From the IMG/VR virus record IMGVR_UViG_3300010373_000096, positions 1 to 35,530 of that record: a DNA stretch of 35,530 bases. The stretch is one strand, 5' to 3'. Below the pieces are notes generated by a model. The model saw nothing but the letters and a program-made list of their open reading frames with translations. It did not search any database and had not been told where the DNA came from. The position numbers were made by a program, and so were the translations under genes. The stretch comes from a virus. Below are positions 3,835-10,696 of this stretch, piece by piece; the stretch's first letter is position 1, and the number at the start of each line of letters is the position of its first letter.

Positions 3835-4653
3835 ATGAACAAAACATCATTCTTTACAGACTTAAACGAAGTTCTAGACGGGCAGCCAGCTCAGCTCGTC
3901 GTTACTTTCAAAGAAAATGGCCAATGCGTGGCCAGCTTTTTACCTACCCGCTCCGGCAGTGTCGGCGGGAAATTTAAACCCCTGAACCTAAACGGACCAG
4001 TAAAAGATTTCGACGAACAGTTCCTGCAGGAGATCCATTCGGCCGTTGCCATCGTAAAAACGGGAAGCATCGCGCAGAACAAAAACGAATTTGTGGAAGC
4101 CGTTGGCGCAGAAGCACCTGCAGTGAAGAAAACCGACAAGAAACCTACCGAATCGAAAGAGAAAATCCTGGGTAATCTTCCGGAAGGAGTGACACAAGAG
4201 CAGGCCGATAAGGTACATAAGCTCAAGGGCCAAGCCAAAGGCATGAAGTTTATCGCCGAGAAAACGGGCCTTACAGAAGCGCTGATAAACGAAGTACTGG
4301 CATGCAAGGTAAAGGCGAACACCAAGCAATTGGATATCGAAGAGGAAGCAGCCAAGGTACCGGTAAAAGTTTCGCACAAACCCGAGGACTTGGCTAACTT
4401 TAAGAAGATTCTCACCAATCAACTTCACGATGCGGAAGATGTGCTCGTATTAGCGCCCCGTAAACTTGAACGCGAACTACCAGAAGAACAAAAAATTGAA
4501 TTACAAGGCGACATTACCCGAGCCCGCAGTACCGTAGAAAATTGCAAAGATAAACTCAAGCAAATAGAAGCCGGCACGTTTGGTACACGTAAGGAACAAA
4601 CCGAACTGGTCCCTGTAGAAGAATTATTAACCCAATTAAATCCTAAAGCATAA
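3835..4653 (+). CDS. PRTRC system protein E
   Basis: 272 aa. The N-terminal 95 residues (NKTSFFTDLNEVLDG..., then KPLNLNGPVKDFDEQFLQEI) match PRTRC-E, a small protein found in PRTRC gene clusters beside PRTRC-C, -B and ThiF. Residues about 95-165 form a Lys/Glu-rich linker with a helix-turn-helix-like stretch (ADKVHKLKGQAKGMKFIAEKTGL). Residues 180-272 look like a coiled-coil or helical extension, making it longer than the short PRTRC-E proteins I know from plasmids. The biochemical role of E is unknown. The next gene begins inside the stop codon (taATG), so the two are translationally coupled. Confidence 0.75.
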   Translation: MNKTSFFTDLNEVLDGQPAQLVVTFKENGQCVASFLPTRSGSVGGKFKPLNLNGPVKDFDEQFLQEIHSAVAIVKTGSIAQNKNEFVEAVGAEAPAVKKTDKKPTESKEKILGNLPEGVTQEQADKVHKLKGQAKGMKFIAEKTGLTEALINEVLACKVKANTKQLDIEEEAAKVPVKVSHKPEDLANFKKILTNQLHDAEDVLVLAPRKLERELPEEQKIELQGDITRARSTVENCKDKLKQIEAGTFGTRKEQTELVPVEELLTQLNPKA

Positions 4654-4874
4654 TGGCACTTCAAGTAACCGGCATCGAACGTAAATTTTCGATTAAAAAA
4701 GGCAAGAAAGAAGAATTCCTGCCCGATCCTGATCCGACCATGTCACCGTCGGAAGTTATCAAGCATTACATCCCCATCTACCCGGAGCTAACGAATGCCC
4801 ATATCGATGGCCCCGATACAAAAGATGGCAAACTGGTGTACAGTATGAGCACCGAGGTAGGTACCCATGGCTGA
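4653..4874 (+). CDS. PRTRC system protein C (ubiquitin-like, Prok_Ub)
   Basis: 73 aa. The core motif FLPDPDPTMSPSEVIKHY, then IYPELTNAHIDGPD and KDGKLVYSMSTEVGTHG, matches PRTRC-C, assigned in comparative genomics to a prokaryotic ubiquitin-like (beta-grasp) family that accompanies E1-, E2- and JAB-type genes. The protein ends directly at ...VGTHG, with a C-terminal Gly that could be adenylated by the ThiF protein without trimming. Its start overlaps the PRTRC-E stop by one base and its end overlaps the ATG at 4867. Family membership is solid from the motif; actual conjugation is inference. Confidence 0.85.
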   Translation: MALQVTGIERKFSIKKGKKEEFLPDPDPTMSPSEVIKHYIPIYPELTNAHIDGPDTKDGKLVYSMSTEVGTHG

Positions 4875-5082
4875 TAAGAACCGGAAGATAACGATTGAAC
4901 AATACCTGAACCAACATCCGATATGCCCCGCACCGCCAAAGAAAAGAAAAAAACAAGCCGAGGAACGCCTGCAAAGGGACGTATTCATAGCCATGCGCGA
5001 CAACGTGGACAGCCTAACACTGCATCACGCAGCACAGGTAAGGATATCGCCACCCTCAGAAATGGTGGATTTTCTGCCCTGA
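4867..5082 (+). CDS. Small lysine-rich ORF coupled to PRTRC-C, or N-terminus of the following protein
   Basis: 71 aa. It starts inside the last codons of PRTRC-C (8-base overlap), the same coupling seen throughout this operon, and its codon choice resembles the neighbours. The sequence has a helical N-terminus (ITIEQYLNQHPICP), a basic stretch (PPKKRKKQAEERLQRD) and ends MVDFLP. It stops exactly where the neighbouring -1 frame begins to look protein-like (ALSFRPEVKYS). A single -1 shift near 5070-5078 would join the two, so this may be the real N-terminus of the next protein, either through a frameshift or a base error, instead of a separate gene. Confidence 0.5.
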   Translation: MADKNRKITIEQYLNQHPICPAPPKKRKKQAEERLQRDVFIAMRDNVDSLTLHHAAQVRISPPSEMVDFLP

Positions 5083-6179
5083 GCTTTCGACCAGAGGTAA
5101 AGTATAGTGCTCAGGTATTTTCGGCAAATAACGAACATCTGGCACTTAGCCACCCCTTAGAGAAATTAAAGCTCATGCGCCGGATATTAGGTTCTTTTCG
5201 GGATCAGCCAGGATTCGAACCGCCTATGGTAAAGGAGCATGCCTCCATCGATGAAGTATTAAACATGCTCACTAGCTATATACTGGAGTATTGTAAAAAG
5301 GATAAAGTAATCAACGACGTAGAGTTGGTGATGGATAGCAAAGGCAAATATCATTTCCGTCTGGGGTTTGGTTCCCAACATTATGGCCTCGGACACTTGC
5401 CATTGTTTTATCTCCCATGGATCGAGAAGCATCATCCGGCATTGTTCGATGTTTGGATAAAGGGCTTGGGTGTGGTGCGCCGTACCGGTTGTTTGTCGCT
5501 CGATGCGTTCACTAAGGGGCAAATCATGTGGGAACTGGAAGACTATTACTCTCCGGATAACCAGGAAGGCTATAATGAATTTGGTGATGAAAACAGCGAC
5601 TATAAGGAAAAATGGAGGGAGGCAAAAGCATTCTATGGCAAGAAAGGACCTGTCTGCCGGTATGCGGATATGATCAGTAGGGCCACTCCTAAACAATGGA
5701 CCAAAGCGTATAAAGCTTTCCAACCCAAGGCTGGTATTGAAGCTGAATTCATCCCCTTACTAGCACTCATAAACATTATCGCCAAAGCCGATCTTACACT
5801 CGACGACGAATATCTCGACGAGAGCAATGAGGATGCGATGGATATGCTACAGCCTTCCATGCAATGGGCCATGTTATGGTGCGATGATCCGGAAAAGGAC
5901 CTTCTCACCCATATCCTACATCAGGATGTCGACTCCATCCAGCAAGGATTTGGCGTACAGGACTGTATTAAATACAACCACCTTACCCTGGGCTATCGAT
6001 TTACCCGCCCTGAATTTAATCTCGCTTCATTGATGGATGACCTTTTCGACAGAGGGTATAAGCTGGCAACGACGCATTTTATTTATAAAGCTTATGGTAA
6101 AGTAGAACCGAGCCCAAATCTTACCTCTATTCTAACACTTCACAACAACGCTGAACAACACATAGAAATTACGGTATGA
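4923..6179 (+). CDS. Large PRTRC-cluster protein (PRTRC-F position), unknown function
   Basis: The open frame from the ATG at 4923 gives 418 aa. The first ~53 residues look like an out-of-frame translation; convincing sequence begins near 5079 (ALSFRPEVKYS). The body is a soluble alpha/beta protein with motifs FRLGFGSQHYGLGHLPLFYL, VRRTGCLSLDAF and an acidic stretch around LDDEYLDESNED. Its place between PRTRC-C and PRTRC-B is where PRTRC-F sits in known clusters, but I cannot confirm homology by eye. Its stop overlaps the PRTRC-B start by 4 bases. The start is unresolved: ATG 4923, a non-ATG codon near 5079, or a -1 frameshift from the preceding frame. Confidence 0.7.
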   Translation: MPRTAKEKKKTSRGTPAKGRIHSHARQRGQPNTASRSTGKDIATLRNGGFSALSFRPEVKYSAQVFSANNEHLALSHPLEKLKLMRRILGSFRDQPGFEPPMVKEHASIDEVLNMLTSYILEYCKKDKVINDVELVMDSKGKYHFRLGFGSQHYGLGHLPLFYLPWIEKHHPALFDVWIKGLGVVRRTGCLSLDAFTKGQIMWELEDYYSPDNQEGYNEFGDENSDYKEKWREAKAFYGKKGPVCRYADMISRATPKQWTKAYKAFQPKAGIEAEFIPLLALINIIAKADLTLDDEYLDESNEDAMDMLQPSMQWAMLWCDDPEKDLLTHILHQDVDSIQQGFGVQDCIKYNHLTLGYRFTRPEFNLASLMDDLFDRGYKLATTHFIYKAYGKVEPSPNLTSILTLHNNAEQHIEITV

Positions 6180-6922
6180 AAGAAACCAAATTAGATATCC
6201 TCGACACTTTCGGAACTAAATATGTACCTCAGGAAGTATTGGTATTCTATAGTTCCGACGACGGAAGGAACCAAAATTACCTAAGTTCCGAACGGGTATA
6301 CATTGAGCATCATGCTGTACGTAGTGGTAAACTGGAAGCAGGCAAACCCATTACCCGGAAATTTATCCACGATCTAGCATTGCTTTCCCAGGAACAAAAC
6401 AACCTAGCGACCGCAACGATTGAAAACCTGATGCCGGAATGTGTACTGTTTCACGATACGCGCCCGGGCCGAAATGTGGTGGCATGGCACCAAAAGCCCC
6501 AAGTAATAATCTTGAGGCTGCAGGGTAATAAAGCCGACCGAACATATAAGGTCCCTATGCCGGATATGCTCTTCTGCGCGAATGGTCCCTCTCTGCATGT
6601 ATATGCGATGAAAACATTGGGTAAACGACCGACCATAGCGACGCCTCTATTTCGCGCACCGGTATGGAATACTTATGATGAAGGCGGTGTATGCATGGGT
6701 AATGTGGAGCATCCGGAAGAGGTGGAAGACATTCAGGATTTTATCGATGAATATACCCGCGCATTTTGGGCCGGCATATTCACCCATGCATCAGGTAAAC
6801 CCACAAAGACCCCTATACCAAAACTATACCTCAAGCTGAAAGGAAAGAAGAGTTTTCCGTTAACGGAACTCATCCCTAGCAAGCCTGCAGGAACAATTAA
6901 ACATTTACTCACACAATTATGA
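6176..6922 (+). CDS. PRTRC system protein B (E2-like, Prok-E2_D)
   Basis: 248 aa. The motifs KVPMPDMLFCANGPSLHVYA, TPLFRAPVWNTYDEGGVCMG and TRAFWAGIFTHASG are those of PRTRC-B, the Prok-E2 family D protein proposed to act like a ubiquitin-conjugating E2. Cys173 (in GGVCMG) is the best candidate for a thioester-forming residue; Cys134 in MLFCANG is the alternative. ATGA overlaps link it to the genes on both sides. In the predicted pathway it would accept PRTRC-C from the ThiF-like E1 and pass it to a target. Family assignment is confident; chemistry is predicted. Confidence 0.85.
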   Translation: MKETKLDILDTFGTKYVPQEVLVFYSSDDGRNQNYLSSERVYIEHHAVRSGKLEAGKPITRKFIHDLALLSQEQNNLATATIENLMPECVLFHDTRPGRNVVAWHQKPQVIILRLQGNKADRTYKVPMPDMLFCANGPSLHVYAMKTLGKRPTIATPLFRAPVWNTYDEGGVCMGNVEHPEEVEDIQDFIDEYTRAFWAGIFTHASGKPTKTPIPKLYLKLKGKKSFPLTELIPSKPAGTIKHLLTQL

Positions 6923-7266
6923 ACACAAACGAACAAACTCAGTCTGCAGCGCCTAGACCAGCGGGTGTATTAGAAAGATTGCAAATGAAAAACCGCCAAC
7001 GTGCCGAATACCTTGGTAAGATTGAAGATTGGTCGCCTAGTGAATGGGCCACTGCAGTATCCGGTGAAGTCGGAGAGCTATGCAATGAAATTACACATCA
7101 GTTACGTGGTGATACTGTACCGAAAGAAAACTTCGAAAATGAAGCCGCCGACATTGTAATCTATCTTGATTTACTGTGTCAACGAATGGATATAGACCTA
7201 CCCAATGCAATCATAAAAAAGTTTAATAAAACCTCCGACAAAAAAAGCATTGATATAAAACTATGA
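6919..7266 (+). CDS. MazG-type nucleoside triphosphate pyrophosphohydrolase
   Basis: 115 aa. It has the all-alpha NTP-PPase signature: ExxE at GEVGELCNEI (Glu50, Glu53, Glu57) and ExxD at ENEAADIVIYLD (Glu75, Asp78), then DLPNAIIKKFNKTS, typical of the third helix in MazG-like enzymes. The family hydrolyses (d)NTPs or nucleotide alarmones to monophosphate and pyrophosphate using Mg2+. Phage copies are linked to nucleotide-pool control. It is inserted between the E2-like and E1-like genes with 4-base overlaps on both sides, so it is co-translated with the PRTRC proteins; MazG is not a standard PRTRC member. Confidence 0.85.
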   Translation: MNTNEQTQSAAPRPAGVLERLQMKNRQRAEYLGKIEDWSPSEWATAVSGEVGELCNEITHQLRGDTVPKENFENEAADIVIYLDLLCQRMDIDLPNAIIKKFNKTSDKKSIDIKL

Positions 7267-8072
7267 AGCCAGTCTATCATTATACTGCAGCATATTTACT
7301 TAACCCTACACATCCGGTTACCATCAACTTGGTAGGGTGTGGTGGGACCGGCTCCCAAGTGCTTAATAATTTAGCACGTACACACTTGGCGCTTCGGGCG
7401 TTAGGACATCGGGGCTTTCATGTGACGGCTTGGGATGGCGATGAAGTAAGCGATGCTAACATCGGCCGACAGCTATTTGTAAGGGGTGATATCGGAGTCA
7501 ACAAAGCACTGGCACTGATTACCCGCATCAACCGGTTTTATACATTGGGCTGGACTGCGCACAGCCGATACTGGAAGGATCCCGAAAGGGAACAACATGC
7601 TAATATCACCATCAGCTGTGTTGACAATGTGCGCACCCGTCGCATGGTATTGGAAGGATTGGTTAAGCAGGATAAAGCAACATTAAAATACAAGGATCGC
7701 CGTGTCGATGATCCTCATATTCCTTTTTATTGGCTGGACTGCGGCAATAATAAGGATAAAGGACAAATTATCCTGGGAAATGTTCGACCGATTCCTCAAC
7801 CAAAGCCGACCAAGGAATTTACCACACAGGAAAACCTCCCGAATCTATTCGACATATTTCCGGATATGGAAAGGCATGAAGGCAAAGAAAGTGGGCCAAG
7901 TTGTTCCTTGGCCCAAGCTTTACATAAACAGGATCTATTCATCAATAGCACACTGGCTCAATTCGCTACCCATCTTATATGGAAAATGTTTCGCAATGCT
8001 CGGCTGCAGTACCATGGTGTATTCCTTAATCTCGATACCATGCAAACTAATCCTTTAAAAGTAAAGGCATGA
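7263..8072 (+). CDS. PRTRC system ThiF-family protein (E1-like adenylyltransferase)
   Basis: 269 aa. The N-terminal Rossmann motif NLVGCGGTGSQ (Gly25-Gly30) is followed by WDGDEVSDANIGRQLF (Asp58, Asp60, Arg69) and SCVDNVRTRR (Asp121), the ATP-binding elements of ThiF/MoeB/E1 enzymes. The C-terminal block GPSCSLAQALHKQDLFINS is characteristic of the PRTRC ThiF subgroup; Cys214 (or Cys160) could be the thioester cysteine. The expected reaction is adenylation of the C-terminal Gly of PRTRC-C followed by thiol transfer. Overlaps of 4 bases join it to MazG upstream and to a small zinc-ribbon-like gene downstream. Confidence 0.9.
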   Translation: MKPVYHYTAAYLLNPTHPVTINLVGCGGTGSQVLNNLARTHLALRALGHRGFHVTAWDGDEVSDANIGRQLFVRGDIGVNKALALITRINRFYTLGWTAHSRYWKDPEREQHANITISCVDNVRTRRMVLEGLVKQDKATLKYKDRRVDDPHIPFYWLDCGNNKDKGQIILGNVRPIPQPKPTKEFTTQENLPNLFDIFPDMERHEGKESGPSCSLAQALHKQDLFINSTLAQFATHLIWKMFRNARLQYHGVFLNLDTMQTNPLKVKA

Positions 8073-8910: not shown

Positions 8911-9315
8911 ATGGCTGGGAAATTAAAAGGCGCAAAAGATGGGGTACCCTTCAAAAAGGGTAAGGACCCGCGTCGTAACCTATCGGGCCGACCCGTGAAA
9001 TTCTTCACCACCATGAAGCAAGCTGGCTACAAGCCCGTCGAGGTAACCGACTGCATTCAGGCAATGCTCGGTTATACTGTCGAGCAACTCCAGGAGATTA
9101 TGAACGAAAAGGAAGATGCGACAGTACTCGAAAAAGGGGTAGCGAAGCTTTTGTTTAATTTCGTCATTACTGGCGATACAACAGACCTCGACACACTCTT
9201 TCACCGGGCTTGGGGTGCACCGAAACATCAGGTCGAGCACTCCGGCGAAGTAAAGACCAATGCCCCTGTAATCAATATACTTCCTCTCCGTGGATCTAAG
9301 CCAACCTCAGAGTGA
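8911..9315 (+). CDS. Terminase small subunit-like protein
   Basis: 134 aa from ATG 8911. An upstream TTG at 8872 is open but adds a non-conserved stretch. The N-terminus GVPFKKGKDPRRNLSGRP fits the 'GNPxGRP'-type start of DUF5681/terminase small-subunit proteins that recognise packaging DNA. A helical body follows (EQLQEIMNEKEDATVLEK, LFHRAWGAPKHQVEHSGE). Its 3' end overlaps the large subunit by 26 bases. It is expected to form a ring that selects the pac or cos site and loads TerL. Confidence 0.75.
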   Translation: MAGKLKGAKDGVPFKKGKDPRRNLSGRPVKFFTTMKQAGYKPVEVTDCIQAMLGYTVEQLQEIMNEKEDATVLEKGVAKLLFNFVITGDTTDLDTLFHRAWGAPKHQVEHSGEVKTNAPVINILPLRGSKPTSE

Positions 9316-10696
9316 TGCCTGGCATTACCTGCATGACAATGAACACACCGAGGTATTGTTCGGCGGTGGAGCTGGCGGGGGTAAGTCAATGCTCGGCTGC
9401 ACCTGGCAGATCAATGAACGTATTGCGCACCCTGGTACCCGGGGTATCATTTGCCGAAAAGAATTAAAACTCATTCGGGAGTCGACACTTGTGACTTTTT
9501 TTTACATGATGGGCCAGCTCGGCTACAAGGCCGGCACCGATTATGAGTATAACAGCACACTGATGACTGTTACATTCTCCAACGAAAGCACCATCACATT
9601 CAAAGACTTGGGATGGATCCCCAGCGATCCCAACTTTGAGCGGCTTGGCTCCAGCGAGTACACTGATTGCTTTATCGACGAGGCGGGTGAAATCACGGAG
9701 AAGGCTTTCGATATCATTACTTCCCGTTTGCGTTGGATGGTGAAGAAAGGCACCGCCATTCCTTTGTCGAAGGTACTACTCACCTGTAATCCGAACAACA
9801 ACTGGATAAAGGCAAAGTATATCAAAAAGGAAAACAAAGAAGTGATACTCAAACCCTACCAAGCTTTTGTGCGGGCTCTGGTCACCGATAATCCCGACAA
9901 AGATTTCGCAGAGACCTATGTACAGCAGCTCAAACGCATGAACAACACCTACGACATCGCCCGGTTATTGGATGGCGACTGGGATGTAACCGAACGTACA
10001 GGTGGCGAGTTTTACAAAAGCTTTGATACCCTCAAGCATGTGAAGCAAGTCCAATACGACCCGAGCTTACCTCTTCACCTCAGTTGGGATAAAAACGTGA
10101 AGCCTTACCTACCCTGTGGCGTGTTCCAAATTAAGGGCAAAACGGTAATGATGATTGACCTGTTCCTCGGCAAGAGCCCGAACAACAAGGTGTGGACCGT
10201 GTGCGATTGGATACGCTCCAAGTATGGCGAGCATACGGATGGTATGTTCATCTATGGGGATTCGACGGCCGACAATAGTGACCCGTCCCTGGAAGAGAAC
10301 CGAACCTTTTATGCGCAGATCATGCAGCGACTGGCATCGTTCAGCCCACAGAAGCGTGTACCTGCCAGTAATCCTTTGGTCGTTCCTAGGGGTCGGTTCA
10401 TTAATGCTATTATGGACAGCAACTATGCCGGTATTTACTTTATGATATCGGACCAGCTGAGCGAGGCCATCAATGAATTCACCAACGTAAAGGAAAATGC
10501 CGAAGGCGGCAAGGATAAGAGCACAGAAAAGGACCAGTCGGGCGCTACATATCAACGCTGGGGACACATTTCCGACCTCACCGACTACATCATTTGCAAG
10601 GCCTTCAATAGCGAGTATGAGCGCTTCAAGCGCGGAGGTGTAGCGGCCTTCGATAACGCTGAAATATTCGACGCCCCCACCAACATTTCGTATTAA
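9290..10696 (+). CDS. terL: Terminase large subunit
   Basis: 468 aa from a GTG start. The ATPase domain has Walker A GGGAGGGKS (25-33) and Walker B CFIDEAGE (127-134, Glu131 catalytic), followed by LLTCNPNNNW as the coupling motif. The RNase H-like nuclease has Asp267 (LSWDKN), Asp324 (YGDSTADN) and a distal acidic pair in HISDLTDYI. It packages genome DNA into proheads and cuts it. Length and motif order are normal for the Mu gp28/Terminase_6 type. It overlaps the small subunit; a TAACTTTG promoter-like element lies in its last codons. Confidence 0.95.
   Translation: MDLSQPQSDAWHYLHDNEHTEVLFGGGAGGGKSMLGCTWQINERIAHPGTRGIICRKELKLIRESTLVTFFYMMGQLGYKAGTDYEYNSTLMTVTFSNESTITFKDLGWIPSDPNFERLGSSEYTDCFIDEAGEITEKAFDIITSRLRWMVKKGTAIPLSKVLLTCNPNNNWIKAKYIKKENKEVILKPYQAFVRALVTDNPDKDFAETYVQQLKRMNNTYDIARLLDGDWDVTERTGGEFYKSFDTLKHVKQVQYDPSLPLHLSWDKNVKPYLPCGVFQIKGKTVMMIDLFLGKSPNNKVWTVCDWIRSKYGEHTDGMFIYGDSTADNSDPSLEENRTFYAQIMQRLASFSPQKRVPASNPLVVPRGRFINAIMDSNYAGIYFMISDQLSEAINEFTNVKENAEGGKDKSTEKDQSGATYQRWGHISDLTDYIICKAFNSEYERFKRGGVAAFDNAEIFDAPTNISY

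Follow-up and report, generated by a model that had tools for sequence, protein, structure and literature searches.

The DNA analysed here, an IMG/VR virus record of 35,530 bases (hereafter the window), comes from a real contractile-tailed phage that carries a PRTRC cassette, in which E1-like, E2-like and ubiquitin-like proteins are encoded together. We put at about even the chance that this is an active E1-E2-ubiquitin-like protein (UBL) cassette, used in replication of the phage genome, tethered to the sliding clamp and tagging replication proteins. The wider proposal, that PRTRC cassettes are systems of clamp-tethered UBL conjugation on the clamp and replisome, used by phages and conjugative elements, is offered more tentatively. 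The observations behind both are gene content, catalytic residues, the C-terminal Gly of the ubiquitin-like protein, gene order, the enrichment of a clamp-binding motif in protein E and, in relatives, the adjacency of dnaN to E. New here are a small gene, s, between C and F, the match of the E motif to host DnaE, and dnaN directly before E.

All genes of the cassette lie on the + strand. PRTRC-E (3835..4653) has a conserved N-terminal domain and a charged C-terminal part, and scores above the cut-off of PF19556 (29.9 bits; cut-off 26) and below that of TIGR03741 (26 bits; cut-off 37.95). PRTRC-C (4653..4874), a ubiquitin-like protein of 73 amino acids, exceeds the cut-offs of TIGR03738 (55.4 bits; cut-off 45.95) and PF14454 (73.2 bits). 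PRTRC-B (6176..6922) is E2-like by PF14460 (Prok-E2_D; 79.7 bits, cut-off 25, E=2.8e-22), with TIGR03737 (92 bits, E=3.5e-26) below its cut-off of 131.45, and the E1-like PRTRC-ThiF (7263..8072) reaches 259.8 bits with TIGR03736 (cut-off 144.75, E=2.1e-77). The slot between B and ThiF is occupied by an accessory protein (6919..7266) that is called only MazG-like, as its PF12643 match (22.9 bits, E=1e-4) is below the cut-off of 27; phrog_2245 matched at E=1.5e-5. The F-like protein (4923..6179) found no match in the library HMM search and was identified by iterated HMM matches to the F families of related loci and by synteny. Curated TIGR and Pfam models thus agree with the genes named at these positions in a preliminary description, and the search that it proposed (TIGR03736-03741, PF14454 and PF14460) returned matches, two of them below cut-off as given above. 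Neither a JAB protein A nor a ParB-family protein is present in the cluster, and the only match of JAB models to an operon protein was a weak one to part of ThiF (E=0.017). We file the window cassette as a PRTRC variant lacking A and ParB, like Bacteroidota cassettes.

The window also encodes a terminase large subunit (9290..10696, + strand; phrog_979, E=2.9e-28, and PF04466), among whose nearest records are phages of Flavobacterium, Bacteroides and Cellulophaga, together with a Mu-type portal, a head protein, a tail sheath (PF10758, phrog_907), a tape measure and a baseplate hub. HMM matches and phage structural genes in one window confirm that the PRTRC cassette belongs to a tailed phage. 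The placement of the cassette between replication and packaging genes holds with certainty on the downstream side, where packaging genes begin 1.2 kb away, and in part upstream, where an RNase_T exonuclease is a clear match and the product of 2108-2815 has a weak DUF7833/replication-initiator-like match. Homologues of the latter lie shortly downstream of ThiF in three related loci (L028, L029 and L044). No clamp gene was found in the window contig, which may be incomplete.

The residues required of an E1 and an E2 are present, as had been noted earlier, and are also conserved across relatives. In ThiF these are G25xG27G28xG30, D58, D60, N66, R69, K81, D121 and the candidate catalytic Cys214; GxGGxG is kept in 89/89 alignable relatives, and D121 and Cys214 each in 90/90. 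In B, Cys173 occurs in 88/88 relatives and His204 is nearly invariant in the alignment. Hence neither an absence of HMM matches nor a conserved loss of Cys173 or of the ThiF ATP site, either of which would have told against the cassette, was found. The ThiF profile matches the solved E1 enzymes UBA6, UBA1 and Cap2 in the PDB; B has no solved relative, and no E2 structure matched it significantly in Foldseek, where the first E2 came at rank 38 with E=1.9. Protein C ends exactly in Gly in 73/78 relatives, mostly as GTKG and in the window as GTHG; it often extends past GTKG in loci that carry a JAB protein and stops at the Gly in those that do not. From these termini, trypsin would be expected to leave 13 residues (LVYSMSTEVGTHG) from the window C and a single Gly from the common GTKG tails, so the mass spectrometry screen for GG/HG remnants suggested in the preliminary description would fail as proposed. 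We found no experimental report of PRTRC-driven conjugation in the literature searched, and conjugates could have escaped proteomics because the one Gly left by GTKG adds 57 Da, the mass of carbamidomethylation.

The link to the clamp comes from the C-terminal tails of E. Using the published clamp-binding consensus (PMC11139829, PMC13254535) on a set of 66 E proteins sharing <55% identity (a larger set was also analysed), we found [SDNGTA][LMI]F in 50/66, compared with 5.7 in shuffled tails (maximum 13), and Qx[SDNGTA][LMI]F in 18/66, compared with 0.29. There was no enrichment for the reversed motif or in neighbouring proteins. Judged by its letters, the E motif is a copy of the one with which DnaE of Bacteroidota binds the clamp: one E protein (L038) contains NQNSLFGGE, and the DnaE proteins of Prevotella, P. 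vulgatus and Mucilaginibacter contain QMNSLFGGE, AANSLFGGE and SQASLFGG, respectively. SQTSLF is another example from an E tail. Motifs of this kind also close the E proteins of proteobacterial plasmids, which end in ...DASLF, ...ADELF, ...SKSLFF or ...ASLW, and that of Burkholderia phage BgVeeders33 in ...VDMY. Many copies lack the Gln at position 1, the loss of which weakened binding in measured cases (PMC11139829). The E tail of the window has no clear clamp-binding motif, nor do those of its nearest relatives (L091 and L092).

The neighbourhood of the cassette points the same way. DnaN, confirmed by Pfam, is encoded in 28/81 viral loci and lies directly 5' of E in 21/28; among the chromosomal loci with DnaN, this arrangement holds in 6/6. 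When the clamp was taken as the starting point of a scan, it adjoined E in 11/13 viral clamp loci with a cassette. Across loci, the neighbours are TopB/DUF3945 (topoisomerase), DnaB, helicase, ParB, replication and clamp genes; virion or defence genes are not the setting. Clamp adjacency could instead reflect shared early-gene timing.

For years, PRTRC clusters have had a name but no assigned function. We propose one on the basis of the E motif, dnaN beside E in phages and, in all contexts, replication neighbours. ThiF would adenylate the C-terminal Gly of C and then carry C on Cys214; B would accept C on Cys173 and pass it to lysines of targets. The short motif in the flexible tail of E may anchor this machinery to the DNA sliding clamp, which would make the clamp and clamp-loaded proteins (replisome and repair proteins) the likely targets. 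F and s would be core accessory factors, possibly with a role in target recognition or resembling an E3. Since the window encodes no JAB deconjugase, C is presumably made ready for use (GTHG-COOH) and the cassette itself would not remove the tag. Catalysis, clamp binding, the targets and use of the host clamp by the window phage are what we infer from genes and motifs. The clamp link is a concrete proposal that can be tested cheaply. If it is true, bacteria and phages have a means of attaching a ubiquitin-like tag to replication proteins, phages encode their own UBL conjugation for replication, in some cases beside their own clamp, and PCNA ubiquitin/SUMO signalling has a bacterial counterpart. 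The analogy would lie in clamp-tethered UBL conjugation at replication forks; the differences are that the clamp is bacterial and the accessory proteins are unrelated.

The 71-residue open reading frame s (4867..5082, + strand; C-terminus ISPPSEMVDFLP) did not appear in the preliminary description. Its start is coupled to the end of C, and it shares the 5' part of F, where it is read in a different frame; this arrangement is kept in 135/144 loci, with a coding signal in the frame of s itself. It is possible, though a little short of even odds, that s is a core subunit of PRTRC cassettes and takes part in the joint clamp-tethered conjugation. F starts at an ATG (4923) inside s, and its conserved core begins at about 5079. 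The invariant -1 overlap had prompted the idea of a programmed -1 frameshift from s into F, which we rejected because F has its own conserved ATG inside s in 104/109 loci (14% expected); no natural in-frame s-F fusion was established. In loci with a JAB gene, size, position and end motif make it plausible that s has become fused to the C tail, but this is a hint only, as the HMM test was not significant. The AlphaFold2 model of F (pLDDT 83.4, pTM 0.81) is mostly alpha-helical. Its fold search gave no PDB match, so we rejected F as a known enzyme; the one match was an uncharacterised Caudovirales protein.

The cassette is not the phage oddity that it had seemed to be. PRTRC relatives are encoded in 317 viral-contig stretches, a search that required alignment queries (single ThiF or B proteins gave zero matches), and a terminase or portal is present on 23/50 long contigs examined. 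Gene order is conserved as E-C-F-B-(x)-ThiF; 57 viral loci and 72 chromosomal ones have ECFBT, and the arrangement is common both on viral contigs and on chromosomes of Bacteroidota. Phocaeicola vulgatus ATCC 8482 has two cassettes (L161 and L165). The window (ECFB-MazG-T) is alone among about 170 loci in having MazG, which removes MazG both from the conserved order and as a core partner. The same slot holds the JAB peptidase, protein A, in proteobacterial plasmids, and protein A is found only in proteobacterial-type loci. The phage cassettes do not form one clade: the tree, in which starred branches force at least 12 changes, intermixes copies from phages, chromosomes (some possibly prophage) and plasmids, and indicates movement of the cassette between phages and other mobile elements. 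Record MT839883, considered as a phage with the cassette, was rejected since it resembles Bacteroides element DNA.

Several other functions have to be weighed against replication-protein tagging. A role in element maintenance (partition, copy number or plasmid-like replication), with the phage living part-time as a plasmid or prophage, agrees with the ParB gene that precedes E in proteobacterial plasmids, the frequency of the cassette on plasmids and ICE-like elements and the adjoining replication genes in phages. However, no ParB adjoins the cassette in the window and in viral loci the ParB-like matches lie scattered and at a distance, and we consider this role unlikely, although it is compatible with clamp targeting and does not exclude it. 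It is rather improbable that virions or host surfaces are tagged, as a form of Bil in reverse that would give superinfection exclusion, weaker competing phages or inter-phage defence. Bil is an antiphage UBL system acting on phage assembly, as reported in PMC12660748 (citing Hor et al. 2024), and its E1, E2 and UBL composition is shared by the window cassette, whose movement between phages and other elements would also fit. Against this, the neighbours are replication, clamp and topoisomerase genes rather than tail or defence genes, PADLOC gave generic E1-E2 matches on the window and no specific system, and the E motif is left unexplained. The Bil operon includes a JAB gene, which the window cassette lacks. 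Phages commonly mimic defence components, and Bacteroidota hosts often have PRTRC cassettes of their own; phage UBL machinery might therefore poison or outcompete host E1-E2 systems of the Bil/CBASS type. We regard such counter-defence as very unlikely, as every catalytic residue is retained, unlike in a decoy, and the accessory proteins E, s and F are kept as a complete set. The modification of virions, superinfection exclusion and counter-defence that were suggested earlier thus gained no positive support, and on our reading replication-protein tagging is favoured over them. Sulfur transfer by ThiF and the UBL, or thio-nucleotide modification with MazG clearing unmodified nucleotides, would suit the ThiF family and the MazG-like gene in the operon but is the least probable reading, given that MazG is confined to the window, that an E2-like protein with its invariant Cys and near-invariant His is present in nearly every cassette, that the operon shows no rhodanese or sulfurtransferase and that, in the PDB, the E1s of protein conjugation come closest to the ThiF profile.

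Among the closest known systems is PRTRC itself (TIGR03736-TIGR03741; E, C, F, B, A, ThiF and ParB), described from proteobacterial plasmids and Bacteroidota conjugative elements. The window shares its C and ThiF models, B and E by Pfam, and the order E-C-F-B-x-ThiF, but differs in having a MazG-like protein in place of A, no ParB and a tailed phage as carrier. The type 6d operon of Iyer et al. 2006 (UBL, alpha-helical protein, E2-like, JAB and E1-like; PMC1779556) likewise has a UBL with a C-terminal Gly, a helical protein like F, an E2-like Cys with a downstream His, and an E1. That description differs in including a JAB protein, names no phage genomes for 6d, and has neither the small overlapping gene nor a clamp link. 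Bil, compared above, also differs from the window in that the latter is phage-borne and in a replication neighbourhood. Finally, one isolated phage carries the cassette: BgVeeders33 (OK665841) has a contractile tail and encodes E, C, s, F, B and ThiF, but its cassette is of the proteobacterial type, with a JAB protein A and an extended C, and lies far from the terminase in the opposite orientation. Its genes are annotated there only as hypothetical proteins and a 'dinucleotide-utilizing enzyme'.

The preliminary description had placed a PRTRC cassette inside a tailed phage, and this is borne out by curated models and by the virion and packaging genes downstream. The ubiquitin-like PRTRC-C (4653-4874) and the E1-like PRTRC-ThiF (7263-8072) score above the NCBIfam cut-off, and PRTRC-E (3835-4653) and the E2-like PRTRC-B (6176-6922) lie above the Pfam cut-off and below that of NCBIfam. 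The MazG-like gene (6919-7266) falls below the Pfam cut-offs, and F (4923-6179) had no match in any profile library searched. From E to ThiF, including a small ORF, s (4867-5082), every neighbouring pair overlaps or is closely spaced. The virus, an IMG/VR record, is a contractile-tailed phage, because a terminase (from 9290), a Mu-type portal (from 12638), a head protein, a sheath (from 23586), a tape measure (from 26186) and a baseplate hub (from 28374) are encoded 3' of the cassette. The closest relatives of the terminase are those of Bacteroidota phages. An ORF at 14-685 on the plus strand encodes a long stretch of ADRAYLADRADRAY-type repeats and has no Pfam match.

The E1 (ATP site, Asp and Cys) and E2 (Cys173) residues reported previously are indeed present. 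The ATP-site residues, Asp121 and Cys214 are essentially invariant across 90 ThiF sequences, as is Cys173 across 88 B sequences; the downstream His of B described by Iyer et al. (2006; PMC1779556) is almost invariant, and C terminates exactly at Gly in 73 of 78 cases. The ThiF profile matched solved E1 enzymes (e.g. UBA6 and Cap2). For B, no related solved structure was found and a good AlphaFold2 model (pLDDT 86.6) had no significant match among E2 structures; its predicted E2 identity therefore rests on Pfam, Iyer et al. (2006) and the residues.

However, the proposed conserved order E-C-F-B-MazG-ThiF did not hold: among the loci examined, MazG occupies the B-ThiF slot in the window alone, and the earlier interpretation as a whole is supported in part, with the observation itself confirmed. 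In other phages this slot holds unrelated small ORFs, and in proteobacterial-type loci it holds the JAB protein A, with the JAMM pattern HSHG...S..D. Where JAB is present, C often extends beyond GTKG (L002, L082, L083, Hydrogenophaga, Rhodoferax and Manganitrophus), while in loci without JAB it stops at the Gly, which suggests that A may mature C and that the phage form would require no maturation. The extra C tails resemble s in size and end, and an HMM test of this likeness was not significant. In two Candidatus Manganitrophus plasmids (L010 and L256), the C proteins differ after GRKG in a frameshift-like manner, possibly through assembly error. PRTRC thus takes a new form in this phage, without JAB and with a new, probable small subunit, s.

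An ORF of 38-85 aa, with its start coupled to the end of C and its stop overlapping F in the -1 frame, lies between C and F in 135 of the 144 loci examined. Our first reading was a -1 frameshift joining s to F, but F has its own ATG within s (104 of 109 non-redundant loci, versus 14% expected). Between related loci, differences concentrate in the third codon positions of s (1694 versus 940 and 980), and protein identity is 69% in the s frame versus 56%. Together with the conserved F ATG, these sequence patterns indicate that s is in all likelihood a genuine gene that overlaps with F. Its end is conserved (type LPPSxxxxx[LIV]F), and the gene is unannotated in the window and its equivalents (about 135 loci); BgVeeders33 and Cupriavidus have a separate small ORF annotated at this position, as hypothetical. 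At L025, L043, L075, L079, L080, L084 and L085, the ORF after C lacks the usual -1 overlap onto F; the small ORF is replaced or moved there, and what it does might be tested naturally in these loci.

In a set of 50,697 deposited phage records, Burkholderia BgVeeders33 is the sole isolated phage that encodes relatives of both B and ThiF. A second such record, MT839883 (L004), was rejected as a phage as it resembles Bacteroides mobile-element DNA; it is labelled 'Bacteriophage sp.' in GenBank, and an integrase-core-like and a sensor-kinase-like ORF lie beside its cassette. ThiF relatives are encoded in 317 IMG/VR stretches, the best 80 of which formed our IMG/VR set. Four Pfam models detected a terminase or portal in 23 of 50 longer IMG/VR cassette contigs (21 pass a curated cut-off), and manual reading of coordinates placed the packaging gene on the same strand and 3' of the cassette, as in the window, in 16 of the 23. 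The usual order is E-C-F-B-(x)-ThiF (57 viral and 72 chromosomal loci). Loci were ranked by similarity to the query, so such counts do not reflect frequencies in the population. In the ThiF+B tree, copies from phages, chromosomes and plasmids intermingle, and the cassette therefore appears to have moved often. On a Tunicatimonas plasmid, the PRTRC cassette has a further ubiquitin-like cluster about 7 kb away (L005:15059-17118), made up of multiubiquitin, ThiF and DUF6527.

The commonest neighbour family of viral cassettes is the sliding clamp, DnaN, confirmed with all three Pfam clamp domains. Of 81 viral loci, 28 contain it, and in 21 it lies immediately 5' of E, an arrangement also found in 6 chromosomal loci. 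A clamp-first scan gave 70 viral clamp loci, 13 of which contain the cassette, with the clamp adjoining E in 11 of the 13; most of these contigs had also been in the first viral set. A clamp query matched 79 of the 50,697 phage records, and phage DnaN of this kind is therefore uncommon. Chromosomal ICE-like cassette loci have TopB and DUF3945 as neighbours and plasmid loci have ParB; in every context the neighbours indicate DNA replication or maintenance. The cassette in Bacteroidota chromosomes (e.g. L124:4300-6066, L157:2157-3986) often follows genes for topoisomerase III and for a DUF3945/DUF4099 protein that bears topoisomerase C-terminal repeats.

An independent observation concerns E, in which a conserved domain is joined to a tail that varies. 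The tails carry a single short motif, x-x-[SDN]-[LMI]-F, similar to the published clamp-binding consensus (PMC11139829, PMC13254535). The motif occurs in 50 of 66 diverged E proteins versus 5.7 in shuffles, and its Gln form in 18 versus 0.29; neither the reversed motif in E nor the motif in neighbouring proteins was enriched. DnaE of the same host phylum has a motif, NSLFGG[ED], of which it is a copy, and E proteins of proteobacterial plasmids have similar motifs at their ends. For the window phage itself the putative clamp link is indirect, because its E has no clear clamp-binding motif, no clamp gene is present in its contig, and the motif is also missing from E of L091 and L092, the relatives nearest to it. 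Around L091, sequences read by eye include RecT-like, helicase, DnaB and integrase-like genes. We propose that the cassette would form ubiquitin-like conjugates at the sliding clamp, and that tagging may aid phage replication, recruit repair or block the host. This proposed function is testable. The Phocaeicola vulgatus ATCC 8482 chromosome, a handy laboratory system, carries two PRTRC cassettes (L161 and L165).
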